Assembly: GCA_963662155.1 (NCBI GenBank)
Contig: OY759268.1
Location: 4,913,701-4,977,700 of the forward strand
Origin: Lamellibrachia columna
Lineage: Eukaryota; Annelida; Polychaeta; Sabellida; Siboglinidae
DNA length: 64,000 nt
Reading direction: 5' to 3'
Part shown: positions 3,491-57,619 of the stretch, piece after piece
Numbering within the stretch: the stretch's first letter is position 1
Layout of the letters: each line of letters begins with the position of its first letter
The notes under the pieces: generated by a model
What the model saw: only the letters and a program-made list of their open reading frames with translations
Told to the model about the DNA's origin: nothing
Databases searched by the model: none
Position numbers and translations under genes: made by a program

Positions 3491-3871
3491 ATATTGATGA
3501 GTGACTAGAGTTGTACGTGAATTAGTTGGATATTTTATTAATGTGTACAACTAAGAATACAAATGTTGCGTTGTATCTGGTTGTTGTAATTGTTCAACTG
3601 ACCCAAATTGATTGTAAAGCAACAACATATATAATAATGTTTAGTTTTTATTTCCCATTTTAAATAGCGGTGCGTTTACAATTCAAAGTTTAAGCTGTAT
3701 CACTAAACCCATAACCTTCTTACAGATAGTTTTATTCAATATATGAATTTGACCCTACTATATAATAATAATTATATTCCAACGGTTATTTTCTTTTAAA
3801 AGTATATAATCATATATGTAGTATATACGGGTGTCTGCATAACACACACAAGATGCGTATTTGATGCTGGT

Positions 3872-5460: not shown

Positions 5461-5576
5461 TCAAACTGCTCCAGCTTTGCATGCCATATTTGCATAACAG
5501 CTTTGCAAGACAGCTTTATGGCTCAGCTTGTAGATACGGGTGATGAAGAAATAGCATGCCAAGAATCCAATTGTCC
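5461..5576 (-). CDS. TM9SF2: TM9SF2-like terminal exon w16
   Basis: 116 nt including TGA at 5463-5461. Begins (G)[16 protein letters not shown], the end of helix 9 and cytosolic tail. Acceptor TTTTGTTTCAG. Human ends six residues after K-I-Y with K-V-D, a K-x-D/E Golgi-retention type tail. Here 22 residues follow R-I-Y and no K-x-D/E is at the terminus; the extra codons sit on a short GCAAAGCTG-like repetition. No GT donor is visible near the divergence point, so the extension is read as real or an alternative terminal exon exists. Confidence 0.88.
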
Positions 5577-8500
5577 CTGAAACAAAAGAACCACAGATAC
5601 AATTTGTCACAATTCCAGATTTGGTCTTATAGAGTGCTGAGGTTAGCGTGACAGCTGTTGTTACCAAACATCATAGCTCTGGAATATGTTGTAATAAGAG
5701 GCAGTCAAAACCCCTCTGCCCCATTCTATTTGCATAGATGGGTGGTTACCACTGGCAACGACTGAACACAATATTCATGACAGAGAATAAATGGGGCTGG
5801 GAAATACCTTAAGAGTTAAATGTGAGTGGAGGGAGCTCCTTGTATGTGGAGTGTAGGAAGTCACATTGATTCTTAAGAGTTAAATGTGAGTGGAGGGAGC
5901 TCCTTGTCTGTGGAGTATGGAAAGTTTCAGTGGCTCCTAAGGGTTAAATGTGAGTGGAGGGAGCTCCTTGTATATGGAGTGTAGAAAGTCACAAAGATTT
6001 AAACAGTACATCATTATCAATATGCAGTTAATCTAATATAAGAGTCAAAGTGTCTGTGCGTCTGTCTGTCTGTTGTGTTTTATGCACGGCCACATTTGTA
6101 GGCTGATCCAGACAAAACTTTGCACGGTGACCTGGGGGCCCTTCTGACAAACATAGGGAGGTCGAATGTGGAACTATCCCCACAGGGGCCCCGGGGGGAG
6201 TCAACATTTCAAAAAGGCTATAGCAGAAGTTACAACCGTGGAATTGTTTTTGTTTCTATGTCATCGTAAAGATAATAATTATGCCTACACATTATGCCTT
6301 TGTATGTATCCAGAAATGTTGAATATTTTTCAAGTGATTAGAGTTTGTCTGTACCCTATACAGGTGTTTTGATAGAAAGTATCTACACAAATACATATAG
6401 CATAACAAACATTAGCTAAGTTTTTTGATAGAAAGTATCTACACATAGCATAACAAACATTAGCTAAGTTATTGTAACATGGTATCTAGCCAGAAACTGC
6501 TTTGTGAAAGACTTGCTACATTGTAGTGAAGCAGTCACACTAATTATTAATAAATTGGTATATTTCCTGACAAAGTAGAAATCACTAAAGTGATACCATT
6601 TTTAAAAAAGATGACGATTCCATTTTTTATAAATATCGTCGAATTTCTATTTTACCAGACATTTCTGAAATTTTTTTAAGAACTATGTTTAACCAAATAC
6701 ACGAACATTTTCATTCCAATAACTTATACTATGATAATTAATATGGGTTTAGAAAAAAATTCTACAGAACTAGCCACTCTAGGAATAATAGATAGAATTG
6801 TTCAGGAACTTGATCAGTCAGCAACACCAACAAACACATATACCTTGATTTATCGAAAGCATTAGACACCATTGATCACAACATACTGTTACATAAATTA
6901 AATTACTATGGTATAAATGGTGCTGCACTTGATCTCTGTAAGAACTACCTATACAATCGCAAATAATATGTAGAAGTTGGAGATTTTAAGTCGGAATAAG
7001 CAACGATAACTTCTGGTGTTCCCCAAGGGTCTATTTTAGGAACACTCGTAATTATTACATATATTAATGACATAGTGTCCTCTTTAAATTTATAATATAT
7101 GCTGACAACACCACCTTATCCAGTACATTGAATAAATTTCTATCTTTGGATGGCCAAAGCCAAAGTATAAACAAAGAGTTAACAAACATATGCAAATGGT
7201 TTAAAGGCTAATAAACTTTCTCTAAACATTAAAAAAAATTATTATATTTCATATGCTTCAGAAAATTTAATCTCCTGTGTTGCAAACAGATGGGACAAAC
7301 TTTGAATGTGTACATTATTTAAATTGTTTAGGTATCATAAAAAATAACCACCTTATTTGGGAGAGCCACATAAACAAAATAACTAACAAAATCATTAAAA
7401 CAATTGGAATCTTAAATAAACATGTATTACATTTGAATATTTGATCTATAATGTACAATTCTTCCCTACATAAATCATGGTATACTGGTGTGGGGACATC
7501 AAGCCCATCACATTGTTAAACTCCAAAAGAGAGCAATACGATTAACTACTTTAAGTAAATACAATGATCACACATAGCCCATTTACATAGAACTTAAATT
7601 TATCAAGTTGAACGACATATACAAACTCCAAAAAATAAAATTTCATTTCAAATTAATTAATAACACACAACTTTGAAATTCATCAATACTACACACGTGG
7701 AAGAAATAATCTGTTTATTCCCAGTGACACTCAAGAGTACGCAACAAAGTACATTAGAAACAATATAATACAGACTGTTAACAATACTCCAAATATTATC
7801 CTCGGTAAAAAAATGTACTCACAGCTTATATGATTTTTCCACTTATATTAAAAAATACTTTATTAGGAATCATGAATCATGCTGTGTTATTCCTAATTGT
7901 AATATTTGTAAATCTTTAACCTAAAATACAGTGGAGTCTCATTTATCCCCACACTCTGGTCCCTATTGGTTCTGGTCAGATTAACGAAGCACGGATTATT
8001 GAACATCAGATAAACCAGACATGATTGTATATATTTATATTACGCTTGATATACAGCTGTATACTAAACCCTAGCACCCTACTAAAGTAAAAAATATACT
8101 GCAATGTCACATGATCACTTCAGTAATATATGATAGCGACATTTGATGTCTTAATGGGAGACTCCCTGACCTACCATGAATAATCTAAATATCTAATAAA
8201 TACGTCTGAGTCTGAGTCTTAGTAACATTGCTGTGCACAGCTTTAAACAGAACTAAAAAAAACCACTGACCTATATAATAATGTAGAACAGGGGAAAATA
8301 CCGGGTCACTCAGCTAGTTATCACTATGCAGATAATACACAGTATTATGCATATACTTTCATACACATTAACTTTCAGAAATGCAAATGCAGGAGATTTA
8401 TGCATAAACTGGAGGTTCTCTGGGTCACGGAGAATTGTGCTTAAATCAGAGGGTCTCATGGTATCAGAGAATTGTGGTGAAAATCTGAGTATTTTACATC

Positions 8501-11500
8501 CTTGTCATGCATACAAATTACCACTAGATCGAAATCGATTAGTTCGAAATACATTACACATGTACTATTAAATGGTTAACAGACATGTTAATACAAAAAT
8601 TTTTGCAGTAGATAAATTATGTGTGGAATAGTAATGGTCTAGGAATAAAACGATTTGCTCTACACCAGAAATATAGTAGCGTACAACAAAAATCCCTTAC
8701 CTCACTGGCAGTAGCCTACATATTTAACACACACGCAACTAACATAATATTAACCGGCAGGTCTAGAACTGAAGCATTTTCTTTTCTTCAAAGTTTGTGG
8801 TCCTGGGTGATGGAGGTGGTGATTCGTGGAGGCATTTGCGGTCTTGGGTGGCTGAGGCATTTTTTATTGGTAAAAATATTCTAAAATACGTCTTTTCATT
8901 CATAATGATAGTATTTACCCAAGTCTCCATTGATTGATATAACCCCTCCGGTAGTTATGGGTGTGAGTAAAAAGATGGATTGGCAATGTTTTGTTAACTG
9001 AGGCTACAGAAAAATATTTTGTTTCATCAGAAATCTGGGAGATTTGTTCTCCCTTGTGGGAGACCGGGAGATTTGATAGATTTCCAGGAGTCTGCTGGCC
9101 ATTCCGGGAAACTTAACATGAGTTAAATGGATGTGGAGGGAGCTCCTTGTCTGTGGAGTGTAAGTCACAGAGACTTACGATTCAAACAGATGTGGAAGGA
9201 AAAAGGGAAATAAGTACATAATTATCAATACACAGATAATACACTACAGTGTAGATAATACACTACAGTGTAGATAATACACTACAGTGTAGATAATACA
9301 CTACAGTGTAGATAATACACTACAGTGTAGATAATACACTAAATGCTTATACTTTGTGTATTGTGTACTAATTAGTTGACATGATGACTGTGTAGACCAA
9401 GTAGAGGAATGTGTATTGTGTACTAATTAGTTGACACTGACAAGACTTAGCAGACAGCAGGAAGAACAAGTAGACCATGATGACTGTGTAGACCAAGTAG
9501 AGGAATGTGTATTGTGTACTAATTAGTGGACACTGACAAGACTTACCAGACAGCAGGAAGAACAAGTAGACCATGATGACTGTGTAGACCAAGTAGAGGA
9601 ATGTGTATTGTGTACTAATTAGTGGACACTGACAAGACTTACCAGACAGCAGGAAGAACAAGTAGACCATGATGACTGTGTAGACCAAGTAGAGGAATGT
9701 GTATTGTGTACTAATTAGTTGACACTGACAAGACTTACCAGACAGCAGGAAGAACAAGTAGACCATGATGACTGTGTAGACCAAGTAGAGGAATGTGTAT
9801 TGTGTACTAATTAGTTGACACAGACAAGACTTACCAGACAGCAGGAAGAACAAGTAGACCATGATGACTGTGTAGACCAAGTAGAGGAATGTGTATTGTG
9901 TACTAATTAGTTGACACAGACAAGACTTAGCAGACAGCAGGAAGAACAAGTAGACCATGATGACTGTGTAGACCAAGTAGAGGAATGTGTATTGTGTACT
10001 AATTAGTTGACACTGACAAGACTTACCAGACAGCAGGAAGAACAAGTAGACCATGATGACTGTGTAGACCAAGTAGAGGAATGTGTATTGTGTACTAATT
10101 AGTTGACACAGACAAGACTTACCAGACAGCAGGAAGAACAAGTAGACCATGATGACTGTGTAGACCAAGTAGAGGAATGTGTATTGTGTACTAATTAGTT
10201 GACACAGACAAGACTTACCAGACAGCAGGAAGAACAAGTAGACCATGATGACTGTGTAGACCAAGTAGAGGAATGTGTATTGTGTACTAATTAGTTGACA
10301 CTGACAAGACTTACCAGACAGCAGGAAGAACAAGTAGACCATGATGACTGTGTAGACCAAGTAGAGGAATGTGTATTGTGTACTAATTAGTTGACACAGA
10401 CAAGACTTACCAGACAGCAGGAAGAACAAGTAGACCATGATGACTGTGTAGACCAAGTAGAGGAATGTGTATTGTGTACTAATTAGTTGACACAGACAAG
10501 ACTTACCAGACAGCAGGAAGAACAAGTAGACCATGATGACTGTGTAGACCAAGTAGAGGAATGTGTGTTGTGTAATAATTAGTTGACACTGACAAGACTT
10601 ACCAGACAGCAGGAAGAACAAGTAGACCATGATGACTGTGTAGACCAAGTAGAGGAATGTGTGTTGTGTAATAATTAGTTGACACTGACAAGACTTACCA
10701 GACAGCAGGAAGAACAAGTAGACCATGATGACTGTGTGGCCCAAGTAGAGGAATGTGTATTGTGTACTAATTAGTTGACACAGACAAGACTTACCAGACA
10801 GCAGGAAGAACAAGTAGACCATGATGACTGTGTAGACCAAGTAGAGGAATGTGTATTGTGTACTAATTAGTTGACACTGACAAGACTTACCAGACAGCAG
10901 GAAGAACAAGTAGACCATGATGACTGTGTAGACCAAGTAGAGGAATGTGTATTGTGTACTAATTAGTTGACACAGACAAGACTTACCAGAGAGCAGGAAG
11001 AACAAGTAGACCATGATGACTGTGTAGACCAAGTAGAGGAATGTGTGTTGTGTAATAATTAGTTGACACTGACAAGACTTACCAGACAGCAGGAAGAACA
11101 AGTAGACCATGATGACTGTGTAGACCAAGTAGAGGAATGTGTGTTGTGTAATAATTAGTTGACACTGACAAGACTTACCAGACAGCAGGAAGAACAAGTA
11201 GACCATGATGACTGTGTAGACCAAGTAGAGGAATGTGTATTGTGTACTAATTAGTTGACACTGACAAGACTTACCAGACAGCAGGAAGAACAAGTAGACC
11301 ATGATGACTGTGTAGACCAAGTAGAGGAATGTGTATTGTGTACTAATTAGTTGACACAGACAAGACTTACCAGACAGCAGGAAGAACAAGTAGACCATGA
11401 TGACTGTGTAGACCAAGTAGAGGAATGTGTGTTGTGTAATAATTAGTTGACACTGACAAGACTTACCAGACAGCAGGAAGAACAAGTAGACCATGATGAC

Positions 11501-14500
11501 TGTGTAGACCAAGTAGAGGAATGTGTGTTGTGTAATAATTAGTTGACACTGACAAGACTTACCAGACAGCAGGAAGAACAAGTAGACCATGATGACTGTG
11601 TAGACCAAGTAGAGGAATGTGTGTTGTGTAATAATTAGTTGACACTGACAAGACTTACCAGACAGCAGGAAGAACAAGAAGACCATGATGACTGTGTAGC
11701 CGAAGTAGAGGAATGTGCTCGCGAAGCCAATGATCTCCGTCTTTGTGTAGTAGTAGTGAATGCAGTACAAGAAGAAATAGATGGTTGTGAAGCCGGACGT
11801 GAGGAACGACTGCCACCACCAGTGGTAGTTCTACAACCACAGGTAGAACTTAGCACCTAAATCCTTATGAATCCAAGCTCAGAGGTGCAACAAACCAGAG
11901 TCATTAAGCAGTATATCGTGAACAGATTCATTAAGCAGTATATCGTGAACAGATTCATTAAGCAGTATATCGTGAACAGATTCATTAAGCAGTATATCGT
12001 GAACATATTCATTGAGCATTATATCGTGAACAGATTCATTAAGCATTATATCGTGAACAGATTCATTAAGCAGTATATCATGAACAGATTCATGAAGCAT
12101 TATATCGTGAACAGATTCATTAAGCAGTATATCGTGAACAGATTCATTAAGCATTATATCGTGAACAGATTCGTTAAGCATTATATCGTGAACAGATTCA
12201 TTATCAAAAAAAATATTTAGTTTTTGCAGAAGGTACCTATAGTATCAGATGATTTGATGGGGGTTCGATATCTGGATTGAGCAATGATATGTCAGTGAGA
12301 CGACATAATTAAACGCTTTAATGAACGTTGTCTTACTTCTGCACACAGGTTGGAGTAGCAGAAAATTATGGTGACTTCGGAGCAGGTCACAACAAAGATG
12401 ATGAAGACGAGGAAGAGGAAGCCAAACATGTAGTACATCTGGTAAGACCTGAAGAAGAAGCCAAACATTGGTACATCTGGTGAGACCTGAAGAGGAAGCC
12501 AAATATTGGTACATATGGTGTGACCTGAAGAGGAAGCCAAACATTGGTACATCTGGTGAGACCTGAAGAAGAAGCCAAATATTTAGTACATCTGGTGAGA
12601 CCTGAACAGGAAACCAGACATTGGTACATCTGGTGTGACCTGAAGAGGAAGCCAAAAATTTGTACATCTGGTGAGACCCGAAGAAGCCAAACCTTTAGTA
12701 CATCTGGTGAGACCTGAAGAGGAAGCCAAACACTGGTACGCCTGGTGAAACCTGAAAAGAAAGCCAAACACTGGTACATCTGGTGAGTCCTGAAGAGGAA
12801 GCCAAACACTGGTACATCTGGTGAGACCTGAAGAGGAAGCCAAACACTGGTACATCTGGTGAGACCTGAAGAGGAAGCCACACTGGTACATCTGGTGAGA
12901 CCTGAAGAGGAAGCCAAACATTGGTACATCTGGTGTAACCTCAAGAGAAAGCCAAACACTGGTACATCTGGTGTGATCTGAAGAGGAAGCCAAACATTGG
13001 TACATCTGATGAGTCCTGAAGAGCAAGCCAAACACTGGTACATATGGTGAGACCTGAAGAAGAAGGCAAATATTGCTGCATCTGGTGAGACCTGAAAAGA
13101 AAGCCAAACAATGGTATATCTGGTGTGACCTGAAGAGGAAGCCAAACACTGGCATGTCTGGTTAGACCTGAAGAGGAAGCCAAACACTGGTACATATGGT
13201 GTGACCTGAAGAGAAAGCCAAACATTGGTACATCTGGTGTCACCTGAAGAGGAAGCCAAACATTGGTACATATGGTGTCACCTGAAGAGGAAGCCAAATA
13301 TGTAGTACATCTAGTGTGACCTGTAGAGGAAGCCAAACATTGGTACATATGGGGAGACCTGAAGAGGAAGCCAAATATGTATTATACTGGTGTGACCTGA
13401 AGAAGAAGCCAAACATTGGTATATATGGTGCTACCTGAAGACAGGGTTGTTTGTTTTAAATCATTTTATTTAAATGATTGATTTAAATCATGATTTAAAT
13501 CGCTCCAAAAAATAAAAAAAATCATTGATTTATGATTTTTTTTACTTCCGTTTTTTTTAATCGCTGATTTATATGAATTTAACACAAATAATTGTTTACA
13601 AGCATCGAGATCAACAAAGTTTTGTGTGTTTTTAATACAAAAGCACAAAGTGTGCACACTTGTGTAGCTGTATTGATACCAGATAGCCTGATAGTAAAAT
13701 ATTTTATGACATTGTGTATACCGGATTTAAAAAAAATCAAACAAATAAAAAAAATCCGATTTTTTTAATTTAAAAAAAAATCATTATTTTTTCAACCCTG
13801 CCTGAAGAGGAAGCCAAACATTGGTACAACTGGTGTGACTTGAAGAGGAAGCCAAACATTGGTACACCTGGCGAGATTTGGACAAGAAACAAAACATTTA
13901 TTGAGTTATACGGGGAACTGTCTGCCAGTAATCTAATATATAAAAGAAAGTGTCTGTTTGTCTGTTGTGTCTTATGCACTGCTGTATTTGTGGGCCAATC
14001 CTGCTGACACTTTGCAAGGTGACCCAGGGGCCTTTCTGACAGATATGGGGGGTCAGATGTGGTATCACCCCAGGGGGTGGAGGTCAGATGTGGAACCATC
14101 ACCTTGGGCCCCCGGGGGGTTGGAGTAAAAATTTCAAAGAGGCTATAGTGGAAATTGGAATTATTTTGCTTTCTATGTCATTGTAAAGATAATAATCATG
14201 TCTACACATTTGTGTTGGATGTATGCAGCAACTTTGAATACTTTTTTGAATAAGTTATTATAATTTTCCTGAGGTGTCTATGTATAGAGGTGCCTATGGA
14301 TAGAAAGCATCCACATACAGTGTATATAGTTAAGCAATAGACACTAGCTACATTATAGTAACATTGTAGTTATACATAGCAACTGCTTTAAGTAGAAAGG
14401 CTTCCTACATTATAGTAACATTGTTGTAGCTATCCCTAGCCTTGGTTTTAACTAGAAAAGACCACTGACCTATACAATAATGTAAATGAAAAAGCCTTAT

Positions 14501-17500
14501 GACAGCCTTTTCTTCCCGTGCAACACTGAGTAACTCAGCAAGGTTTTATTATACTTTGAATTAATAATAGTCCATCAACCCAAGTCAACAATATGCATGT
14601 TAGTGTTTAAAAAAAAAAATGCAGAGGTGACCTATGTAAACGTGAGCCAAACTCAACTCCAGCTCTCACCATATGCTGCAGAGGTGACCTATGTAAACAT
14701 GAGTCAGACACAACTCCAGCACTCACCATATGCTGCAGAGCTGACCCATGTAAACGTAAGTCAGACTCAACTCCAGCACCCATCATATGCTGCAGAGGTG
14801 ACCTATGTAAACATGAGTCAGACACAACTCCAGCACTCACCATATGCTGCAGAGGTGACCTATGTAAACATGAGTCAGACTCAACTCCAGCACTCACCAT
14901 ATGCTGCAGAGGTGACCTATGCAAACATGAGTCAGACTCAACTCCAGCACTCACCATATGCTGCAGAGGTGACCTGTGTAAACATGAGTCAGACTCAACT
15001 CCAGCATTCACCGTATGCTGCAGAGGTGACCTATGTAAACATGAGTCAGACTCAACTCCAGCACTCACCGTATGCTGCAGAGGTGACCTGTGTAAACATG
15101 AGTCAGACTCAACTCCAGCACTCACCATATGCTGCAGAGGTGACCTGTGTAAACATGAGTCAGACTCAACTCCAGCACTCACCATATGCTGCAGAGGTGA
15201 CCTATGTAAACATGAGTCAGACTCAACTCCAGCACTCACCGTATGCTGCAGAGGTGACCTGTGTAAACATGAGTCAGACTCAACTCCAGCACTCACCATA
15301 TGCTGCAGAGGTGACCTGTGTAAACATGAGTCAGACTCAACTCCAGCACTCACCATATGCTGCAGAGGTGACCTGTGTAAACATGAGTCAGACTCAACTC
15401 CAGCACTCACCATATGTTACAGAGGTGACCTGTGTAAACATGAGTCAGACTCAACTCCAGCACTCACCATATGCTATTAAGGATGAAGAAGAGCTGGATG
15501 AAGATGCAGCCAAATGGGAGCACGCCTCCCATGATGATCCTGGGCAGTGATTGTGTGTAGAACGTCTGGTCTGGGATTTGACGGGGGATCTGATTGGTCC
15601 TCACAGGATGCTCAATCGGCTGTGGACAATAAGCAACAGTAAAACAACCAAAGCAATTAGTTTGTTGGGGTTTTTATGCTTACTTTTGAATAAAAGTAGT
15701 AACTTAGATATCACCCGAAACTTTCTTATTTTGGTTGCATGAGGAAGACTTCCAGGGAAAGGGGAGAATTTCCCAGGAATTTAAAATGTCTGTGGCAAGA
15801 TGTTTTAAGTGAAAGCTTCCATTGCACAGTGTAATTACATTGGGGCGCGGTAGTGTGGTGGTTAGAACATTGAGGTGCAGTAGTGTAGTGGTTAGAACAT
15901 TGGGGCGTGGTAGTGTAGTGGTTAGAACATCGGGGTGCAGTAGTGTACTGGCCAGAACATTGGGGCACGGTAGTGTAGTGGTTAGAACATTGGGGTGCAG
16001 TAGTGTAGTGGTTAGAACATTGGGGTGCAGTAGTGTAGTGGCTAGAACATTGGGGCACGGTAGTGTAGTGGTTAGAACATTGGGGCGCGGTAGTGTAGTG
16101 GTTAGAACATTGGGGTGCAGTAGTGTAGTGGCTAGAACATTGGGTGCAGTAGTGTAGTGGTTAGAACATTGGGGCGCGGTAGTGTAGTGGTTAGAACATT
16201 GAGGTGCAGTAGTGTAGTGGTTAGAACATTGGGGCATGGTAGTGTAGTGGTTAGAACATTGGGGTGCAGTAGTGTAGTGGCTAGAACATTGGGTGCAGTA
16301 GTGTAGTGGCTAGAACATTGGGGCACGGTAGTGTAGTGGTTAGAACATTGGGGTGCAGTAGTGTAGTGGTTAGAACATTGGGGTGCAGTAGTGTAGTGGT
16401 TAGAACATTGGGGTGCAGTAGTGTAGTGGTTAGAACATTGGGGCACGGTAGTGTAGTGGTTAGAACATTGGGGTGCAGTAGTGTAGTGGCTAGAACATTG
16501 GGGCACGGTAGTGTAGTGGTTAGAACATTGGGGCGCGGTAGTGTAGTGGTTAGAACATTGGGGTGCAGTAGTGTAGTGGCTAGAACATTGGGTGCAGTAG
16601 TGTAGTGGCTAGAACATTGGGGCACGGTAGTGTAGTGGCTAGAACATTGGGGTGCAGTAGTGTAGTGGCTAGAACATTGGGTGCAGTAGTGTAGTGGCTA
16701 GAACATAGGGGCACGGTAGTGTAGTGGTTAGAACATTGGAGTGCAGTAGTGTAGTGGCTAGAACATTGGGGCGCGGTAGTGTAGTGGTTAGAACATCGGG
16801 GTGCAGTAGTGTAGTGGTTAGAACATTGGGGCGCGGTAGTGTAGTGGTTAGAACATTGGGTGCAGTAGTGTAGTGGCTAGAACATTGGGGCACGGAAGTG
16901 TAGTGGCTAGAACATTGGGGCACGGTAGTGTAGTGGTTAGAACATTGGGGTGCAGTAGTGTAGTGGCTAGAACATTGGGGCACAGTAGTGTAGTGGTTAG
17001 AACATTGGGGCACGGTAGTGTAGTGGTTAGAACATTGGGGTGCAGTAGTGTAGTGGCTAGAACATTGGGTGCAGTAGTGTAGTGGTTAGAACATTGGGGC
17101 ACGGAAGTGTAGTGGCTAGAACATTGGGGCGCGGTAGTGTAGTGGTTAGAACATTGGGGTGCAGTAGTGTAGTGGCTAGAACATTGGGGCACGGTAGCGT
17201 AGTGGTTAGAACATTGGGGCACGGTAGTGTAGTGGTTAGAACATTGGGGTGCAGTAGTGTAGTGGCTAGAACATTGGGTGCAGTAGTGTAGTGGCTAGAA
17301 CATTGGGGCGCGGTAGTGTAGTGGTTAGAACATTGAGGTGCAGTAGTGTAGTGGCTAGAACATTGGGGCGCGGTAGTGTAGTGGTTAGAACATCGGGGTG
17401 CAGTAGTGTAGTGGTTAGAACATTGGGGCATGGTAGTGTAGTGGTTAGAACATTGGGGTGCAGTATTGTAGTGGCTAGAACATTGGGGCACGATAGTGTA

Positions 17501-20500
17501 GTGGTTAGAACATTGGGGCGCGGTAGTGTAGTGGTTAGAACATTGGGGTGCAGTAGTGTAGTGGCTAGAACATTGGGTGCAGTAGTGTAGTGGCTAGAAC
17601 ATTGGGGCGTGGTAGTGTAGTGGTTAGAACATTGAGGTGCAGTAGTGTAGTGGCCAGAACATTGGGGCATGGTAGTGTAGTGGTTAGAACATTGGGGTGC
17701 AGTAGTGTTGTGGCTAGAACATTGGGGTGCGGTAGTGTAGTGGTTAGAACATCGGGGTGCAGTAGTGTAGTGGTTAGAACATTGGGGCATGGTAGTGTAG
17801 TGGTTAGAACATTGGGGTGCAGTAGTGTAGTGGTTAGAACATTGGGGCGCAGTAGTTCAGTGGATAGAACATTGGGGTGCAGTAGTGTAGTGGTTAGAAC
17901 ATTGGGGTGCAGTAGTGTAGTGGTTAGAACATTGGGGCACGGTAGTGTAGTGGTTAGAACATTGGGGTGCAGTAGTTCAGTGGATAGAACATTGGGGTGC
18001 AGTAGTGTAGTGGCTAGAACATTGGGGCACAGTAGTGTAGTGGCTAGAACATTGGGGTGCAGTAGTGTAGTGGTTAGAACATTGGGGTGCAGTAGTGTAG
18101 TGGCTAGAACATTGGTGTGCAGTAGTGTAGTGGTTAGAACATTGGGGTACAGTAGTGTAGTGGTTAGAACATTGGGGTGCAGTAGTTCAGTGGATAGAAC
18201 ATTGGGGTGTAGTAGTGTAGTGGTTAGAACATTGGGGTGCAGTAGTGTAGTGGTTAGAACATTGGGGCATGGTAGTGTAGTGGTTAGAACATTGGGGTGC
18301 AGTAGTGTAGTGGCTAGAACAGTGGGGCGCGGTAGTGTAGTGGCTAGAACATTGGGGTGCAGTAGTGTAGTGGCTAGAATATTGGGGCACGGTATTGTGA
18401 TGGTTAGAACATTGGGGTGCAGTAGTGTAGTGGTTAGAACATTGGGGTGCAGTAGTGTAGTGGTTAGAACATTGGGGTGCAGTAGTGTAGTGGTTAGAAC
18501 ATTGGGGCGCGGTAGTGTAGTGGTTAGAACATTGAGGTGCAGTAGTGTAGTGGCTAGAACATTGGGGTGCAGTAGTGTGGTGGTTAGAACATTGGGGTGC
18601 AGTAGTGTAGTGGCTAGAACATTGGGGCACGGTAGTGTAGTGGTTAGAACATTGGGGTGCAGTAGTGTAGTGGTTAGAACATTGGGGTGCAGTAGTGTAG
18701 TGGTTAGAACACTGGGGCGCGGTAGTGTGGTGGTTAGAACATCTCTCATTTGAGAGAACCAGAGTTCGAGTCCTCTTGTTGCCATTTTGAAACTTGGGTA
18801 ATTTTGTTCATCCAACTTTGCTCCAGTTCACTGAACTGTACAAGTGAGTACCTGGCAATAGACAATGACGAGATTCCAATGATGGAGGTATAAGAACAAA
18901 CAGTTCACTGAGCTGTACAAGTGAGCACCTGGCAATAGACAATGACGAGATTCCAATGATGGAGGTATAAGAACAAACAGTTCACTGAGCTGTACAAGTG
19001 AGTACCTGGCAACAGACAATGACGAGATTCCAGTGATGGAGGTATAAGAACAAACAGTTCACTGAGCTGTACAAGTGATTACCTGGCAATAGACAATGAC
19101 GAGATTCCAGTGATGGAGGTATAAGAACAAACAGTTCACTGAGCTGTACAAGTGAGTACCTGGCAATAGACAATGACGAGATTCCAGTGATGGAGGTATA
19201 AGAACAAACAGTTCACTGAGCTGTACAAGTGAGTACCTGGCAATAGACAATGACGAGATTCCAGTGATGGAGGTATAAGAACAAACAGTTCACTGAGCTG
19301 TACAAGTGAGCACCTGGCAATAGACATTGACGAGATTCCAGGGATGGAGGTATAAGAACAAACAGTTCACTGAGCTGTACAAGTGAGCACCTGGCAATAG
19401 ACACTGATGGGATTCCAGGAATGGAGGTATAAAAACAAACAGTTCACTGAGCTGTACAAGTGAGCACCTGGCAATAGACACTGATGGGATTCCAGGGATG
19501 GAGGTATAAGAACAAACAGTTCACTGAGCTGTACAAATGAGCACCTGGGAACAGACACTGATGGGATTCCAGTGATGGAGGTATAAGAACAAACAGTTGA
19601 CTGAGCTGTACAAGTGAGCACCTGGCAATAGACAATGACGAGATTCCAGGGATGGAGGTATAAGAACAAACAGTTCACTGAGCTGTACAAGTGAGCACCT
19701 GGCAATAGACAATGACGAGATTCCAGTGATGGAGGTATAAGAACAAACAGTTCACTGAGCTGTACAAGTGAGCACCTGGCAATAGACACTGATGGGATTC
19801 CAGGGATGAAGGTATATGAACAAACAGTTTTCATGCAACATTTGCAGCATGGCTGGATGGCTCAATAGATGTAGAAATGGTGTTAGCATGGACGCGTCTG
19901 CCTCAATAACAATCGTTGGATGGCACGGTATAAACTAGCACTTTATTTTATAGTACATACCCTTTTCTTGAATTCAAAGTAGGCACCCACAAAGGTAAGG
20001 GGCACAGACACGCAGAACCACAGGGCGAGGAGAGAGATGAGGGTGCTGAAGGAAACCGCCCCACTGCTGCCGTACCCCCACAGCACAAGATTGAGGAGGA
20101 AGAAGATGCCAAACACGATGCTGCAGAGAAAGTCACAATATACAGTCTTACACGGTCCCTAAGACATTCTGTGTTGTGTTCTAAGTCACACATGCAGTGT
20201 TCTAAGACATACATGCAATGTTCTAAGTCGCACATGCAGTGTTCTAAGTCACACCTGCAGTGTTCTAAGTCACACCTGCAGTGTTCTAAGTCACACCTGC
20301 AGTGTTCTAAGCCACACATGCAGTGTTCCAACCCAGACATTCAGTGTTCTAAGCCAGACATTCAGTGTTCTAAGCCACATGTGCAGTGTTCTAAGCCACA
20401 CATTCAGAGTTCTAAGCCACACATGCAGTGTTCTAAGCCACACGTTCAGTGTTCTAAGCCACACATGCAGTGTTCTAAGTCACACATTCAGTGCTCTAAG

Positions 20501-23500
20501 GCACACATGCAGTGTTCTAAGTCACACATGCAATGTTATAAGCCACACATAGAGTGCTCTACGTCACACATGCAGTGGTCTCAGAATCCACTTTTAAGGA
20601 TGAAATGTCATTTTTGACAAAAATTACTCAAAATGTCTTTCCACTGTATTCTGATAGCTTTGTATATTTATTATCCATAAATTTAATTTTTGAGAATTTG
20701 ATTCTCAGCGCCCCATTCTATACACCCAGGGAAACCCTGTAGACACTAACTTGAATCTCAGCACTCAATTCATTACACCCAGGGAAACCCTGTAGACGCT
20801 AACTTGAATCTCAGCACCCCATTCCGGGAAACCCTGAAGTAACTTACCCGGGACACAGGAAGGCAGTCAAGAGTACGTTTGTCTTCCACTTCTCTCCTCC
20901 AATCACTGCAACCATGGCAACATGACAATAACCATGGCAACATGTCAATGACCATGGCAACATGTCAACAAAGTACTGATTTATTTAGTTTGCTGTCGCA
21001 TCTGGTCGAAATGTCAGCTATAAGTGAATGTTGTCATTGCCATCTCAGTGACTACATCTGGTCAAAAAGTCAGCTATAAGTGAATGTTGTCATTGCCATC
21101 TCAGTGACTACATCTGGTCAAAATGTCAGTTATAAGTGAATGCTGTCATTGCCATCTCAGTGACTACATCTGGTCAAAATGTCAGTTATAAGTGAATGCT
21201 GTCATTGCCATCTCAGTGACTACATCTGGTCAAAAAGTCAGCTATAAGTGAATGTTGTCATTGCCATCTCAGTGACTACATCTGGTCAAAATGTCAGTTA
21301 TAAGTGAATGCTGTCATTGCCATCTCAGTGACTACATCTGGTCAAAATGTCAGTTATAAGTGAATGCTGTCATTGCCATCTCAGTGATTACATCTGGTCA
21401 AAATGTCAGCTATAAGTGAATGTTGTCATTGCCATCTCAGTGACTACATCTGGTCAAAATGTCAGCTATAAATGAATGTTGTCATTGCCATCTCAGTGAC
21501 TACATCTGGTCAAAATGTCAGCTATAAGTGAATGCTGTCATTGCCATCTCAGTGACTACACTGCAACTGTGCTACACTGGACCCTGCAGCATTTAACGTA
21601 GGTTTGATTAAAATTTGAATCGTTTATTATAGTTTATCTAGAACAAGTCCCAAAAGCTTTATTTAATATAATACATCTAGAGTGTAGTATAATTGAGATC
21701 AGATTTGTTTTAAAAATTAATTCACCACATATCAGTGAAACAGGTATTTCACATCTCCATTATGCAGCAAATATTGATGATCAAATGATTCAGTGAGGGA
21801 TTGACTTGTTCGATGGGTGATTATTTTTAGTCAATATTTTAGCATTAGTAAATATTTTAATCTAGGAAAGAACAATGGTCGAGTCTGGCCTTTCAACCAA
21901 GTATAACCAATCATTCCGGGACACCAATGCATAATACTGAACGTATGACAATTGTCAAATATTGGAAACCTACGAGAAAACACGTGCTGTCACGACCAGA
22001 TGATTAATAAGATATTAATGGATCATCATATTTATGAATGGACACCCACAAGCAAACACGTTACTGACTTCATTAATTACATCACTAATTATTCCTAGAT
22101 AGTACTGGTGTTAAACATCTGGCAATAGTCTTAATGTTGGACATTCCACAGGCAACTGAGTGGTCCATCATTTTGTGCTCTCAGACTACACACGTACTGT
22201 CAACATGTAATCACTTGACTGCTTAGACAGAGAACAGGAGTCTTGTTCCATTTCAGTATTTATTTCAACATACAGCCCCCTTTCGTCTTATGTCCAGTCA
22301 CAGCCAAATCCACAGGGTGCTCTAAGTGTCCAATCAGAAAGCTCTAATGGATACTTATCTGCAGACTGCCCCGCGAACTACGTTCATATACAACTTTTAT
22401 TCTGCCACAATACAACGACACTTCAAAATATGGTTACCATAGACCAAAAGGATAGATCTTTACGGTGTAACTCTGGCTGGGATTATAAGGCCGGGAGTTT
22501 TGTAGCCTTGGGACGGTTCTAGTTAACAATAATTAATACTTAACATGATTTTTGTTGCTCAAGGAGAACTATGAAAATATTTCCATAATTGTAATTTTAA
22601 TAATTATGGTAGGGATAAACTACAGCAGTTTACAACTACTTTAAGTTTGGCTTAAAAAGACAGTGATTTAAATTTCAACTATTTTATTGTTCAGACCAGA
22701 CTCTGTTAGTGTGTGTGTGTTAGCAATGTTATCTTACGATTCAGACCAGACTCTGTTAGTGTCTGTGTTAGCAATGTTATCTTATGATTCAGACCAGACT
22801 CTGTTAGTGTCTGTGTTAGCAATGTTATCTTATGATTCAGACCAGACTCTGTTAGTGTCTGTGTTAGCAATGTTATCTTATGATTCAGACCAGACTCTGT
22901 TAGTGTCTGTGTTAGCAATGTTATCTTATGATTCAGACCAGACTCTGTTAGTGTCTGTGTTAGCAATGTTATCTTATGATTCAGACCAGACTCTGTTAGT
23001 GTCTGTGTTAGCAATGTTATCTTATGGTTCAGACCAGACTCTGTTAGTGTCTGTGTTAGCAATGTTATCTTATGATTCAGACCAGACTCTGTTAGTGGCT
23101 GTGTTAGCAATGTTATCTTATGGTTCAGACCAGACTCTGTTAGTGTCTGTGTTAGCAATGTTATCTTATGATTCAGACCAGACTCTGTTAGTGTCTGTGT
23201 TGGCAATGTTATCTTATGGTTCAGACCAGACTCTGTTAGTGTCTGTGTTGGCAATGTTATCTTATGATTCAGACCAGACTCTGTTAGTGTCTGTGTTGGC
23301 AATGTTATCTTATGGTTCAGACCAGACTCTGTTAGTGTCTGTGTTAGCAATGTTATCTTATGATTCAGACCAGACTTTGTTAGTGTCTGTGTTAGCAATG
23401 TTATCTTATGGTTCAGACCAGACTCTGTTAGTGTCTGTGTTAGCAATGTTATCTTATGATTCAGACCAGACTCTGTTAGTGTCTGTGTTAGCAATGTTAT

Positions 23501-26500
23501 CTTATGGTTCAGACCAGACTCTGTTAGTGTCTGTGTTAGCAATGTTATCTTATGATTCAGACCAGACTCTGTTAGTGTCTGTGTTAGCAATGTTATCTTA
23601 TGGTTCAGACCAGACTCTGTTAGTGTCTGTGTTAGCAATGTTATCTTATGGTTCAGACCAGACTCTGTTAGTGTCTGTGTTAGCAATGTTATCTTATGAT
23701 TCAGACCAGACTTTGTTAGTGTCTGTGTTAGCAATGTTATCTTAAGATTCAGACCAGACTCTGTTAGTGTCTGTGTTAGCAATGTTATCTTATGGTTCAG
23801 ACCAGACTCTGTTAGTGTCTGTGTTAGCAATGTTATCTTCACAGACATTATATTGTGTTGTGCAATCGTCTATTGAATGTCCCATGATTGACATTTCACT
23901 GCTGAATTAAATATCTTACCAAAACAACGAATATGGACTGCGTGTTGATACAACCTTCATTCCGATTTGGACTTTATATCAAACTTTGATGTACTTTGTC
24001 CAAGGGTGAGTTACTGAATTCTTACTTGATGGGGTGAGTCTATTTGCAAATTTCGACCCTACCAGAATACAGGCTCAGATGGAGGAAGCCATTTTTGTTC
24101 AGACATTGCAAAATATCCTTGAATGGATAGATGATCCGGTTTCTTGGTTATTAATATTAAAGATAATTACCTCTCAAGAAACTTGGTGTTTGATCTGAAT
24201 ATTTCGACCACATCCCGCAATCTTCTTCAGCAGACTGAATCTTGTGTCACATGACCAATGTCATGTGACACAAGCTGGAGTAGGACTAGTGGGAGCTCCT
24301 GGCCTACGTCACGGTTCACCATAAGTTTCTCTCTGTGGATGTTAATCGCCTCCTTTATTTTCCTCCTGTGCCAGTTCTCCTCATGGTCTAGAATTTTAAC
24401 GTCCTTCATAGAACACTGAAGGCCACAAATTGAACACAGGCCATCAGTCTATCTAGGAATAATTAGTGATGTAATTAATGAAGTCAGTAACGTGTTTGCT
24501 TGTGGGTGTCCATTCATAAATGTGACGATCCATTAATATCTTATTAATCATCTGGTCGTGACAGCACGTGTTTTCTCGTAGGTTTCCAATATTTGACAAT
24601 TGTCATATGTTCAGTATTATGCATTGGTGTCCCAGAATGATTGGTTATACTTAGTTGAAAGGCCAGACTCGACCATTGTTCTTTCCTAGATTAAAATATT
24701 TACTAATTCTAAAATACTGACTAAAAATAATCACCCATCGAACAAGTCAATCCCTCACTAAACCATTTGATCACCAATATTTGCTGTATAATGGAGATGT
24801 GAAATACCTGTTTCACTGATATGTGGTGCATTCATTTTTAATACAAATCTGATCACAATTATACTACACTCTAGATGCAGTACATTAAATAAAGCTTTTG
24901 GGACTTGTTCCAGATAAACTATAATAAACGATTCAAATTTTAATCAAAACTACATTAAATGCTGTACGGTCCAGTGTAGCACAGTTGCAGTGTAGTCACT
25001 GAGATGGCAATGACAACATTAACTTATAGGTGACATTTCGACCAGATGTAGTCACTGAGATGGCAATGACAGCATTCACTTACAGCTGACATTTAGACCA
25101 GATGTAGTCACTGAGATGGCAATGACAGCATTCACTTACAGCTGACATTTCGACCAGATGTAGTCACTGAGATGGCAATGACAGCATTCACTTACAGCTG
25201 ACATTTCGACCAGATGTAGTCACTGAGATGGCAATGACAGCATTCGCTTACAGCTGACATTTCGACCAGATGTAGTCACTGAGATGGCAATGACAGCATT
25301 CACTTACAGCTGACATTTCGACAAGATGTAGTCACTGAGATGGCAATGACAGCATTCACTTACAGCTGACATTTCGATCAGATGTAGTCACTGAGATGGC
25401 AATGACAGCATTCACTTACAGCTGACATTTCGACCAGATGTAGTCACTGAGATGGCAATGACAGCATTCACTTACAGCTGACATTTCGACCAGATGTAGT
25501 CACTGAGATGGCAATGACAGCATTCACTTACAGCTGACATTTCGACCAGATGTAGTCACTGAGATGGCAATGACAGCATTCACTTACAGCTGACATTTCG
25601 ATCAGATGTAGTCACTGAGATGGCAATGACAGCATTCACTTACAGCTGACATTTCGACCAGATGTAGTCACTGAGATGGCAATGACAGCATTCACTTACA
25701 GCTGACATTTCGACCAGATGTAGTCACTGAGATGGCAATGACAGCATTCACTTATAGCTGACATTTCGACCAGATGAGACAGCAAACTAAATAAATCAGT
25801 ACTTTATTGACATGTTGCCACAAACTGAACACAGGCCATCAGTCTTCTATGAAGGATGTTACAATTCTAGACCATGAGGAGAACTGGCACAGGAGGAAAA
25901 TAAAGGAGGCGATTAACATCCACAGAGAGAAACCCACGTTGAACCGTGACGTTGGCCAGGAGCTCCCACCAGTCCTGCTCCAGCTTGTGTCACATGACCA
26001 ATGTCATGTGACACATCCGTAACTTCAGTTTGCTGAAGAAGACCGTGGGATGTCGTTGAAATATTCAGATCAAACACCAAGTTTCTTGAGAGGTAATTAT
26101 GTTTAATAATGCAAAATATGTTTGTATATTGCAATAGAGATTAGAGTGTACATCGATTTTTTCAAGGCAATCTGCGACCCCAAATCAAGACAGTACATTT
26201 CGGGGATGGGACTATAGATTTTTCATGTTTACAACATTTTTCATACACTGGTTAGTGCTAATGTGACCATAGAATTTAAGTGAGGGCCTGTACACGAACT
26301 TTAAAAAAATCGCTGCAGTGTATATTGCAATACACGTCCTGTGTAAATTTGGCCACATGAATATAGCAGACACTCACTCTTGTAGATGCGAGCAGAGACG
26401 TAGCCGGCCGGCGTCCCCAGACACACGTACAGGATGAGGGCCGTAGTCATGAAAGAGCCGCGGTTGGCAGGCGACAGGAAGCCCAGGCACGCAAACACTG

Positions 26501-29500
26501 CAATAACACAACAAGTCTACATTATAAAGTAGCTTGTAACTTTGTATGTCTGTTCCCTCATATGTCCGTTAGTTTATCATGTGTGTAACTCTGTATGTCT
26601 GTTCCCTCATATGTCCGTTAGTTTCGCATGTGTGTAACTCTGTATGTCTGTTCCCTCATATGTCCGTTAGTTTCGCATGTGTGTAACTCTGTATGTCTGT
26701 TCCCTCATATGTCCGTTAGTTTCGCATGTGTGTAACTCTATATGTCTGTTCCCTCATATGTCCGTTAGTTTCGCATGTATGTAACTCTGTATGTCTGTTC
26801 CCTCATATGTCCGTTAGTTTCACATGTGTGTAACTCTGTATGTCTGTTCCCTCATATGTCCATTAGTTTCACATGTGTGTAACTCTGTATGTCTGTTCCC
26901 TCATATGTCCGTTAGTTTCGCATGTGTGTAACTCTGTATGTCTGTTCCCTCATATGTCCGTTAGTTTCGCATGTGTGTAACTCTGTATGTCTGTTCCCTC
27001 ATATGTCCGTTAGTTTCGCATGTGTGTAACTCTGTATGTCTGTTCCCTCATATGTCCGTTAGTTTCGCATGTAACTCTATATGTCTGTTCCCTCATATGT
27101 CCATTAGTTTATCATGTGTGTAACTCTGTATGTCTGTTCCCTCATATGTCCGTTAGTTTCGCACGTAACTCTATATGTCTGTTCCCTCATATGTCCGTTA
27201 GTTTCACATGTGTGTAACTCTGTATGTCTGTTCCCTCATATGTCCATTAGTTTCACATGTGTGTAACTCTGTATGTCTGTTCCCTCATATGTCCGTTAGT
27301 TTCACATGTGTGTAACTCTGTATGTCTGTTCCCTCATATGTCCATTAGTTTCACATGTGTGTAACTCTGTATGTCTGTTCCCTCATATGTCCGTTAGTTT
27401 CGCATGTGTGTAACTCTGTATGTCTGTTCCCTCATATGTCCGTTAGTTTCGCATGTGTGTAACTCTGTATGTCTGTTCCCTCATATGTCCGTTAGTTTCG
27501 CATGTGTGTAACTCTGTATGTCTGTTCCCTCATATGTCCGTTAGTTTCGCATGTAACTCTATATGTCTGTTCCCTCATATGTCCGTTAGTTTATCATGTG
27601 TGTAACTCTGTATGTCTGTTCCCTCATATGTCCGTTAGTTTCGCACGTAACTCTATATGTCTGTTCCCTCATATGTCCGTTAGTTTCGCATGTGTGTAAC
27701 TCTGTATGTCTGTTCCCTCATATGTCCGTTAGTTTCGCATGTGTGTAACTCTGTATGTCTGTTCCCTCATATCTCCACAAAAATTCTCCCAGGGAGATAT
27801 TATAAAAGAAACAAACATAGACGTTTGATGTAGATGATGTAACTCTGAGCAATAGGCGTTCATAGCTACGTACAATTATTGTTAGTAACGCTATAAATGT
27901 TTTCTACAATTTTTCACAAGTTACATAATCTACGTCAAACATCCACATAAGTTCCTTTGTATGGTAGTAACACTTTGTGACACCTGCAGTTGTACATGAT
28001 TTTGGGGGGCAAGAAGTTGTCACTGCCAGTGACATTGCCCTACCAAAACTTGACTGGATTGCTGGAGTCAAAAACTCTTGCATTGGCTGCAACACCAGAC
28101 CACTCAACTAGTTTACTGTTACAAGGTACCTATTTACATCATGTACTACACTGTCAGAACCCACTCATTTATATGGCAATGAATCTTCCATAATTATTGC
28201 ATTTAAATTACATTATAATGAGAGGTTTCTGAGAACCCAAATAAAATAAACTTCTTAATAAAAATTACACAAGTTCTTAAGAAACCACAAAATTTGTTGG
28301 TGATCAGAATCTAACATACACGTACGTCGACATTTCAGTAACTTTCATATTCTCTGGTTTTGAACTCATAAAATTTCACTGAGTGTGATAACAATGATGA
28401 CAGTGGTGACATGGCACTGGACCCACCAAGTGTGATGACAATAATGACAGTGGTGACATGACATTGGACCCAACAATTGTATTGACAGTGGTGTCATGGC
28501 ACTGGACCCACCAAGTGTGATGACAGTAATGACAGTGGTGACATGACATTGGACCCACCAAGTGTAATGACAGTGGTGACATGGCACTGGACCCACCAAG
28601 TGTGATGACAATAATGACAGTGGTGACATGACATTGGACCCAACAATTGTATTGACAGTGGTGACATGGCACTGGACCCACCAAGTGTGATGACAGTAAT
28701 GACAGTGGTGACATGACATTGGACCCACCAAGTGTAATGACAGTGGTGACATGGCACTGGACCCACCATGTTTGATGACAGTAATGACAGTGGTGACATG
28801 ACATTGGACCCACCAAGTGTAATGACAGTGATGACATGGCACTGGACCCACCATGTTTGATGACAGTAATAACAGTGGTGACATGACACTGGACCCACCA
28901 AGTGTGATGACAGTAATGACAGTGGTGACATGACATTGGACCCACCAAGTGTAATGACAGTGGTGACATGGCACTGGACCCACCATGTGTAATGACAGTG
29001 CTGACATGGTACTGTACCAACCAAGTGCGATGACAGTAGTGACAGTAGTGACATGGTGCTGGACACACCAAGTGTGATGACAGCAATGACAGTGGTGACA
29101 TGGCGCTGGACCCTCCGAGCGTTATGATAGTAATGACAGTGGTGACATGGCGCTGGACCCAACAAGTGTGATGACAGCAATGACAGTGGTGTCATGGCAC
29201 TGGACCCACCGAGTGTGATGACAGTAATGACAGTGGTGACATGGTGCTGGACCCACCGAGTGTGATGAGAGTCATAAAGAACATCTGCAGCCCATTGCCA
29301 ACGAAGACAGACAGGAGCATGCCCTTGCACGGAGGGCGGAAGACATCCCCATGCACCAGCTTCCACACAAAGTCCTTCTGAGCATCCTCCTGCGGGGAAC
29401 ACAAGCATCAGTGTTTGGTTTTTTCAGGGACAGACCACAATTTGTGCAGACATTTCCTTTAATCATTCATAGTAAATTATACATAAATTAACTGACGTGA

Positions 29501-32500
29501 GAATTTTGATAAAACGACATATTCTTCAGAAAAACACCCAAACCTGTCCAACTATTTCAACCCAGCCCAGCGACTGAGTGTGAAATGTCAGTGTTGTCTA
29601 ATAGCCACTGTGGTGAAACACGAGTGGTCAGTGAGGTGATATGTGAGTGGTCAGTGTGGTGATATATGAGTGGTCATTGTGGTGATACACAAGTGGTCAG
29701 TGTAGTGATATGGGAGTGGTCAGTGTAGTGATATGTGAGTGGTCAGTGTGGTGATACATCAGTGGCCATTGTGGTGATACACAAGTGGTCAGTGAGGTGA
29801 TACACGAGTGGTCAGTGTGATGATATGTGAGTGGTCAGTGTGGTGATACATGAGTGGTCATTGTGGTTTTACACAAGTGGTCACTGAGGTGATACGCGAG
29901 TGGTCAGTGTGGTGATATGTGAGTGGTCAGTGGGGTGATACGTGAGTGGTCAGTGTAGTGATATGGGAGTGGTCAGTTTGTTGATACATGAGTGGTCAGT
30001 GAGGTGATATGTGAGTGGACAGTGTGGTGATATGTGAGTGGACAGTGTGGTGATACATGAGTGGTCATTGTGGTGATACGCAAGTGGTCAGTGAGGTGAT
30101 ATGTGAGTGGTCAGTGTGGTGATATGTGAGTGGTCAGTGTGGTGATATAATAGAAAACACACATAACATTGTGAAGAATTGTACATAATAACTATGAATA
30201 TAATTCATAATTAATATTACTGTTCACAATGTTATGCGTTTTTTTTCGAAAAGCTGACTCCACAAAGATGGTTGTAGCAATCATAGAATACACAGTTAGC
30301 ACTGTGAACAAGGTAATAGTGGGGTGAATTTCAACAAATAAGTGCTACAGATCTTTCCTGGGGTCATGGATGAACCCCAGGAAGTTTGGTGCCTGTTACT
30401 GCAAAGCATCCAGAAGTAGCATAACAGACATACTCTAGCTTGATTATAATGACACAGCCAGAGACTCACAGCATTGTCAATTTGATTGTAGCGAGCAATG
30501 TCCTTATGGAGGGTACGCAGCATGATCCTAGCCACCATTGCAGACAGGAAGAGCACGATCACCAGGGAGTTGAAGATACTGCAAAACATCAGCAAAATAT
30601 CACTCAACTGGCATTTCATGCATTTATGTGGACAGGACAATGTCTTAGCTTTATTTTAAGGCCAATGTCACTACTTTAACGCCATTAGGATCAGAGTACT
30701 GTCTAAATACGGGTTAAGATGTAACAGTAATTTTTTTCAATTGTTTCTATTAATCTGCAGTAACTCTAACTAGTTCAATTTATCTAACTAGGTAAATTTT
30801 ACAACAGGTGTGCCAAATTTCATTAAAATCAATGAAGATTACAGTCACCAAAACAACATCAACAATTATTACAACCATCAAAACAACATAAATAGTGAAC
30901 ACAACCACCAAAAGACCATCAACAATGAACACTGAATCAGTAAAACAACATCACCAATGAACACTGAATCAGTAAAACAACATCAACAATGAACACTGAA
31001 TCAGTAAAACAACATCAACAAGGAACACTGAATCAGTTAAACAACATCAACAATGAACACTGAATCAGTAAAACAACATCAACAATGAACACTGAATCAG
31101 TAAAACAACATCAACAATGAACACTGAATCAGTAAAACAACATCAACAAGGAACACTGAATCAGTAAAACAACATCAACAAGGAACACTGAATCAGTAAA
31201 ACAACATCAACAATGAACATTGAATCAGTAAAACAACATCAACAAGGAACACTGAATCAGTAAAACAACATCAACAAGGAACACTGAATCAGTAAAACAA
31301 CATCAACAAGGAACACTGAATCAGTAAAACAACATCAACAAGGAACACTGAATCAGTAAAACAACATCAACAAGGAACACTGAATCAGTAAAACAACATC
31401 AACAAGGAACACTGAATCAGTAAAACAACATCAACAAGGAACACTGAATCAGTAAAACAATACCAATAATGAACATTGAATCAATAAAACAACATCAACA
31501 AGGAACACTGAATCAGTAAAACAACATCAACAAGGAACACTGAATCAGTAAAACAACATCAACAAGGAACACTGAATCAGTAAAACAACATCAACAAGGA
31601 ACACTGAATCAGTAAAACAACATCAACAAGGAACACTGAATCAGTAAAACAACATCAACAGGGAACACTGAATCAGTAAAACAACATCAACAAGGAACAC
31701 TGAATCAGTAAAACAACATCAACAAGGAACACTGAATCAGTAAAACAACATCAACAAGGAACACTGAATCAGTAAAACAACATCAACAAGGAACACTGAA
31801 TCAGTAAAACAATACCAATAATGAACATTGAATCAGTAAAACAGATCAACAAGGAACACTGAATCAGTAAAACAACATCAACAAGGAACACTGAATCAGT
31901 AAAACAACATCAACAAGGAACACTGAATCAGTAAAACAACATCAACAAGGAACACTGAATCAGTAAAACAACATCAACAAGGAACACTGAATCAGTAAAA
32001 CAACATCAACAAGGAACACTGAATCAGTAAAACAACATCAACAAGGAACACTGAATCAGTAAAACAATACCAATAATGAACATTGAATCAGCAAAACAAG
32101 ATCAACAATGAATACAGAATCAGTTAAACTACATCAACACAAAATGCTGAGCCACATAAAACAAGGTCCATGGGACTGAGTAAAACAACATCAACACTGA
32201 GTAATGTAACTTTAGGTAAATTTTACAACATGTGTGCCATTTTCAACATATGTGCCAAATTTAACTAAAATCAACAAAGATTATAGTCACCAAAACAACA
32301 CCAACAATTATCACAGCCATTAAAACAACACCAACAATTATCACAGCCATTAAAACAACACCAACAATTATCACAGCCATTAAAACAACACCAACAATTA
32401 TCACAGCCATTAAAACAACATCAACAATGAACACAACCACCAAAAGACCATCAACAATGAACATTGAATCAGTAAAACAACATCAACACCCACTGCTGAG

Positions 32501-53199: not shown

Positions 53200-53221
53200 C
53201 TGAAAACAAAACCATTGCGTC

Positions 53222-55372: not shown

Positions 55373-55670
55373 GCTTTGGAAAAGTGATAATGTGCATTTT
55401 TACACAGAAATTAGGTTTTACTTAGACAAAAATGAGGCGGGCCAGATTCTAGATACACTGTAAGTGGTTTCAAATTATAAACAAAGAATTACCTAAATAT
55501 ACAAATGGCAAATGAACTAATATAATATCAGGGTTTAACGTTTTAAAAAACCAGGCAAGCCAGATATGCGAAATAATTTAGGCGAGCAATTTTGTAGTTT
55601 TAAAATTAACCACTTGGTGGTGCACAAAATGTCTGCACGTCATCACTAGTAGCAACGCCATGCAGACTTA
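55373..55670. other. flank with part of a dispersed element
   Basis: 55625-55671 (ACTAGTAGCAACGCCATGCAGACT region) aligns with 44745-44775. The same element resumes at 57531 beyond the LINE. No gene found here; specifically no signal-peptide exon for the TM9SF2-like gene. Confidence 0.5.
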
Positions 55671-57530: not shown

Positions 57531-57619
57531 GTGAGGCTACATATCAAAACAACATGGCAGCTATACACAGCGACAACACGAAAGCAGACGAGGTGAAGAT
57601 TGTGTTTAATTGTAGCGCC

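Follow-up and report, generated by a model that had tools for sequence, protein, structure and literature searches.

This report concerns a window of 64,000 nucleotides from the siboglinid annelid Lamellibrachia columna (GCA_963662155.1, contig OY759268.1, forward-strand positions 4,913,701 to 4,977,700), and in particular a set of tandem repeats that run across the exon-intron junctions of a single TM9SF2-like gene. The gene is modelled on the minus strand at 5461..53199, with 16 coding exons, 15 GT-AG introns and a product of 638 residues. All 15 native joins have GT-AG ends and keep the frame, and there is neither a stop nor a frameshift in the 1917 nt. The model matches the Pfam domain EMP70 with 676 bits, and its best named matches are TM9SF2; the nearest of the listed proteins is P0002, the TM9SF2 of Lamellibrachia satsuma (87%, with 97% of the query covered), followed by P0001 at 83%, and no listed protein is identical to the model.

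The most striking of the repeats is found at the fifteenth exon. This exon (e15, also written w15, just as e16 is also written w16) is coding, lies on the minus strand at 11659..11830, and is bounded by the acceptor TTGTAG|AAC and the donor CTG|GTAAGT; in a protein search it shares 90% identity with L. satsuma TM9SF2 over the exon. Across its donor runs a minisatellite, also on the minus strand, at 9380..11717, for which Tandem Repeats Finder (TRF) gives a period of 96, 24.4 copies and 98% matches; chance falls far short of explaining such a repeat. Its unit starts with 59 bp of exon end and continues with 37 bp of intron, the donor being counted within the latter. On the exon side stands the native copy (11622..11717, minus strand, with the same 59 bases of exon and 37 of intron), which is followed by 23 extra copies and by a partial last copy of 34 bases (9380-9413). 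The minus-strand stretch 9368..9413 holds this partial copy, which has no exon end and no donor, and the in-frame stop TAG that ends at 9368. The donor reads GTAAGT in 21 of the extra units and CTAAGT in 2. The first-pass annotation had described a donor-bearing 96-bp unit repeated 23 times, with GTAAGT retained in 21 of them and no stop before 9368. All of this stands, and the minus-strand frame is indeed open through exon and array from 11830 to 9368, or 820 residues; only the exon share of the unit, put at 55 nt, had to be replaced by the 59 bases counted here.

What would happen if one of the extra donors, or decoys, was used? Each of the 21 intact decoys, joined to e16 at 5576, leaves the frame uninterrupted, and every unit adds 32 residues, exactly as had been calculated beforehand. 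The hydrophobic block proposed for the unit is also real, the best 19-residue mean of its translation being 2.14 on the Kyte-Doolittle scale. Nine of the 15 introns of the gene are open to position +38 in the frame of their own exon, and one period in three is a multiple of three, so that an open array in frame is expected with a chance of ∼0.2 (9/15 × 1/3). The open frame is a weak coding signal because an accident of this kind occurs about one time in five.

The differences among the units tell a similar story. Eight positions vary, with seven replacements, one silent change and no stop; given that a random single change in the unit creates a stop in 16 of 288 cases, zero stops are expected with a probability of ∼0.6. 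The variation looks neutral, that is, unconstrained for protein. The open frame was considered as a sign of selection for coding, and this was rejected on account of the one-in-five accident and of the predominance of replacements. The exon and the unit consensus differ by three mismatches within the 59 exon bases (56/59 in common). In all the units the motif LYFGY has become LYLVY, and the glycine of this motif occurs in 189 of 189 pattern-matched homologues (186 LYFGY, 3 LYLGY) among 214 proteins scanned, a set made of 120 listed of the 258 found with the exon and the first units, plus all 94 of another search. One of the three differences is tyrosine for phenylalanine: tyrosine is the state in P0002, and among the 189 homologues matched at that site it is found in 12, with phenylalanine in 175. 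The units may preserve the exon in an older form; alternatively, the change between the two residues may have arisen twice. A 5-mer otherwise specific to the unit is shared by 16 of the 214 homologues, of which 12 have the natural variant VYLFF, 2 have TFLYL and 2 have LLSGK. Further sequence from the linker of the unit is found in 0 of 214, with only the 2 LLSGK proteins carrying that motif, at the exon end; this set excludes the species of the window, so that the negative says little about its own transcripts.

The array of e15 is not alone, as four other junctions of the gene are crossed by arrays, all on the minus strand, which overlap the exon ends by 8-37 nt. Two of them carry donors. 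At e13 (15468-15619), the array at 14620..15475 has 15 copies of a 57-bp unit that includes the exon end CATATG|GTGAGT, and already its first decoy leads to a stop because the in-frame reading is TGG TGA. At e9 (29257-29389), ∼20 copies of a unit of ∼47 bp at 28382..29272 contain the exon end with a GTGGGT donor. The other two carry acceptors. At e14 (12337-12448), a 38-bp unit is repeated 27 times at 12412..13441, and consists of 36 nt resembling the exon start together with AG; at e4 (42610-42745), a 40-bp unit is repeated 8.4 times at 42714..43045 and reads TTGTAG|GATCATTGACAACATG... (IIDNMPVTWC). Every copy that matches the pattern of the native site was translated; for e14 this means the copies that fit the acceptor pattern, 12 including the native one, from the ∼27 units given by TRF. 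The protein is left intact by 0 of 9 decoys at e13, 0 of 13 at e9, 1 of 11 at e14 and 0 of 5 at e4, in total 1 of 38. Over the five junctions the native-pattern decoys number 59, namely 21 donors at e15, 22 donors at e13 and e9, and 16 acceptors at e14 and e4.

The junction of e4 has a counterpart in the other tubeworm. At this place the predicted protein P0002 reads WIVDNMPVTWIVDNMPVTWC, which is the e4 block twice. The duplication of the junction probably predates the split from L. satsuma, judging from this doubled block; or, alternatively, the gene predictor took a second copy of the acceptor, and either way duplicated DNA is required.

Two further repeats lie close to these arrays. A detached relative of the e14 acceptor array occurs at 13801-13900, ∼360 bp away in the same intron, with 87% identity over 100 bp. 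A 70-bp array at 41916-42582 begins 28 bp into the intron from the donor of e4; its unit looks by eye like a decayed donor region (ATT|GTAAGG; highest score on the sense strand 5.52), and it is perhaps an older array derived from a junction.

Do arrays meet junctions more often than their abundance predicts? Tandem arrays cover 57% of the intron bases of the gene. For the comparison, 40 of the 76 TRF rows were used; those excluded by hand were outside the gene span, or lay within or overlapped a row that was retained, and one was inside e16. Five of the 40 span a junction (the donors of e15, e13 and e9, and the acceptors of e14 and e4), compared with 1.19 expected under random placement (P 0.004). 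At 9 of 30 intron-side junctions an array edge lies at the junction or at most 10 bp from it, compared with 1.36 expected from random gaps, a value reached in 0 of 5000 null runs; this test is post hoc, designed after the pattern was noticed, and refers to one gene. The gaps were taken as uniform in Null B, and the settings were then varied by capping the gaps, halving the free intron length or dropping arrays under 100 bp. Over six such settings the expectation at 10 bp is 1.19-2.75, and the observed 9 (6 without arrays <100 bp) is reached by at most 4 of 5000 runs. At a cut-off of 100 bp, 15 are observed and 10.75 expected.

Taken together, these data suggest that the decoys of e15 are likely spliced out with the intron, the cut being made at the original, exon-side donor. 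The array could have started as a single tandem duplication of 96 bp over the e15 junction, between two CACA tetramers. One of these is in the exon (GAG-CACA-TTCC) and the other in the intron beyond the array (ATA-CACA-AAG): the exon at the start of the unit reads GAGCACATTCC, and the intron beyond the array reads ...TACACAATACACAAAG. Such a seed duplication would have left the native exon and the donor of e15 untouched, and unequal exchange or slippage may then have multiplied the unit. Exon definition favours the donor that makes the shortest exon. Provided that this donor is the one chosen, the extra copies cost nothing because they are on the intron side. The sister arrays lead to the same point by another way: if the gene works, the outermost site is needed, always or nearly so, at e4, e9, e13 and e14, because nearly every decoy tested there ruins the protein, and the same rule is therefore likely to hold at e15. 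The in-frame state of the e15 array would then be luck, with the corollary that a decoy used by mistake now and then would lengthen the protein without interrupting it. The first-pass annotation had mentioned as its simplest alternative that a single donor, the first or the last, is used, and in its first-donor form this alternative is judged a better explanation than the use of the blocks.

A number of points weigh against this explanation. The native donor is the site that we infer to be used at e15, and the decoys are identical to it over the nine scored bases (10.42, with approximate weights). Since the donor is the same and 56 of 59 exon bases are shared, the sequence gives little preference and position must decide. 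Test constructs with two equal donors can favour the intron-proximal one. Array edges also cluster less clearly at junctions with a 30-bp cut-off, at which 11 of 30 are observed: this value is reached by 267 of 5000 null runs when the free intron is halved, and by 116 of 5000 with capped gaps and without the short arrays. Among arrays with at least 2.5 copies, a donor score of at least 7 is found in 5 of 32 on the sense strand and in 7 of 32 on the antisense strand, and with these figures the idea that strong donor matches in arrays are sense-specific was rejected. A donor match alone means little, so that the argument rests on exon-derived donors only. Finally, the argument that correct splicing is obligatory is weakened by the changes at near-invariant positions of the gene, 29 of 244 compared with 8 each in P0001 and P0002.

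This last point leads to the strongest of the competing explanations, namely that the gene is a TM9SF2 duplicate losing its function, in which arrays overran the junctions unopposed and the outcome of splicing is irrelevant. The comparison of near-invariant positions drew on 182 of the 290 proteins fetched, those of 560-700 residues, with 180 of them as background homologues; in the latter the number of changed positions has a median of 0, a 95th percentile of 5 and a maximum of 20. Six of the 29 changes in the window are common to P0001 and P0002, and seven are in e16, where the alignment of the end is poor. From the shared consensus, the window departs alone at 29 positions, P0002 at 2 and P0001 at 8. 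By these comparisons the gene copy is fast-evolving, and constraint may have been relaxed on it as a duplicate, although it has no stop or frameshift.

The ends of the gene model point in the same direction. The last exon, e16 (5461..5576, minus strand), has the acceptor TTTCAG|GGACAATTGG in phase 1; it codes for GTIGFLACYFFITRIYK, with the first G split over the junction, and then for a C-terminus that does not have the KVD of the family. This tripeptide is present at the C-terminal end of 156 of the 214 listed homologues, and passages of PMC6348303 describe it in human TM9SF2 as a COPI-binding signal needed for one tested function. KVD is absent from e16, and a pattern search of the region below 11659 did not find it elsewhere. 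No better candidate for the last exon was found there by pattern or among the tblastn matches listed; the true one could be located past the window edge. A 13-bp repeat (3.5 copies, 5472-5517) lies within the coding end of e16, at the place where the KVD terminus is expected. At the other end, the first exon or exons of the family, with the signal peptide, were not found in the window by pattern, motifs like FYLPG/GMAP being absent from 53132-64000; the window may simply not reach them. Sequence searches with the e15-e16 piece and with P0002 gave no solved structure for the family.

Against decay is the fact that, despite many replacements, the model has an intact frame and canonical sites at all 15 introns. 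Moreover, the e4 block is also doubled in P0002, a conserved relative, which means that duplication at a junction does not require decay, and both terminal exons may be beyond the limits of the window. On balance, decay is rather unlikely.

Clearly less probable is the reading put forward at first, by which the decoys are used in some transcripts and copy number encodes an extension of n extra 32-residue membrane blocks, with odd values of n flipping the C-terminus. Its attractions are the 21 intact in-frame donors, equal in score to the native one, the hydrophobic block of 19 residues in each unit, and the human 6-16 minisatellite, which a paper title describes as giving multiple splice donor sites. 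However, the claim that the blocks extend the protein has found no support: the unit changes are mostly replacements, an invariant glycine is lost, the open frame is an accident of about one in five, the linker has no match in the 214 homologues, own species not among these, and the sister arrays could not serve in the same way. Bolder, and more doubtful again, is the conjecture that, in this animal lineage, minisatellites arise preferentially at exon-intron junctions, so that genes hold dozens of perfect decoy sites, and that open units divisible by three, such as that of e15, become a TM9SF2 ladder set by copy number, with one helix per unit. That the e15 array works in the intron as a regulatory U1 sink or a recursive-splicing ladder, altering processing without coding, might be imagined from 21 GTAAGT decoys on the sense strand in 2.3 kb, and is the least probable of all given that elsewhere in the gene there are arrays with acceptors, or without any strong match to a donor.

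Other repeats in the window deserve a mention. Arrays of a 56-bp unit occur in opposite orientation within one intron (20999-21560 and 24991-25776; 94% identity over 562 bp), with a 48-bp array between them. The 77-bp unit of the array at 18824-19829 has a relative in opposite orientation at ∼5364-5422, just downstream of e16 (85% over 59 bp). A 151-bp tandem unit is common to 58862-59424 and 62883-63302, ∼3.5 kb apart, with 93% identity over 420 bp. Finally, the open frames at 1743-3521, 33383-35240, 36584-37291 and 55610-57415 are, by eye, putative pieces of reverse transcriptase of the long interspersed nuclear element (LINE) type.

Why does this gene matter? It offers a natural experiment on the choice of splice sites, with the 59 decoys distributed over five junctions of one gene and position as the main cue. 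Exclusive use of the outermost sites would demonstrate cleanly that position selects a site over near-perfect competitors; if decoys are used, the length of the protein would follow the number of copies. Should array edges prove to cluster at junctions throughout the genome, this would indicate a mutational process acting at splice junctions.

As for known systems, the gene belongs with the TM9SF2/EMP70 (nonaspanin) family by its domain and its best similarity, and differs from it in being an accelerated copy with a modelled C-terminus that does not have KVD. In the open-licence literature, covered by titles and the starts of abstracts, neither a tubeworm case nor any gene in which several arrays span junctions was found; the passages available from the Ridgeia genome paper (PMC9921365) mention tandem-repeat annotation and intron lengths, and nothing on junction arrays. 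In MIR137HG, the length of a variable number tandem repeat (VNTR) correlates with the use of alternative 5' splice sites, according to passages of PMC6692358; there, the alternative donors are in the pre-miR-137 sequence, apart from the VNTR, whereas here the donor is within the repeat unit. Intron gain by tandem duplication of an AGGT or junction segment is treated in parts of PMC4974935, which include a potato RNA-dependent RNA polymerase gene with a duplicated intron-exon structure and cite fission-yeast genes in which a 24-bp segment is present several times. As far as those parts go, the likeness is that tandem duplication multiplies splice signals in both. In that model an exonic AGGT segment founds a new intron; here, the unit spans an existing junction, an existing intron is enlarged, the copies stay inside it, and no extra intron is needed.

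The closest precedent is the minisatellite of 6-16 (IFI6), whose unit is reportedly 12 bp. Going by the title of the paper that describes it, cited in PMC4526556 and PMC2572611, this minisatellite gives multiple splice donors, so that the likeness, as far as a title conveys it, is that the copies offer several donors to one transcript. The e15 array has the same layout: it starts at the exon end and has a donor in each unit, intact in 21 of the 23 extra ones. The differences are that the unit, short in 6-16, is here of 96 bp and carries 59 bp of coding exon, that four further junctions of the gene carry arrays, with acceptors at two, and that the donors here are read from sequence only. What sets this gene apart is the scale reached in one gene, the presence of both donors and acceptors, and a unit that is an in-frame membrane block.

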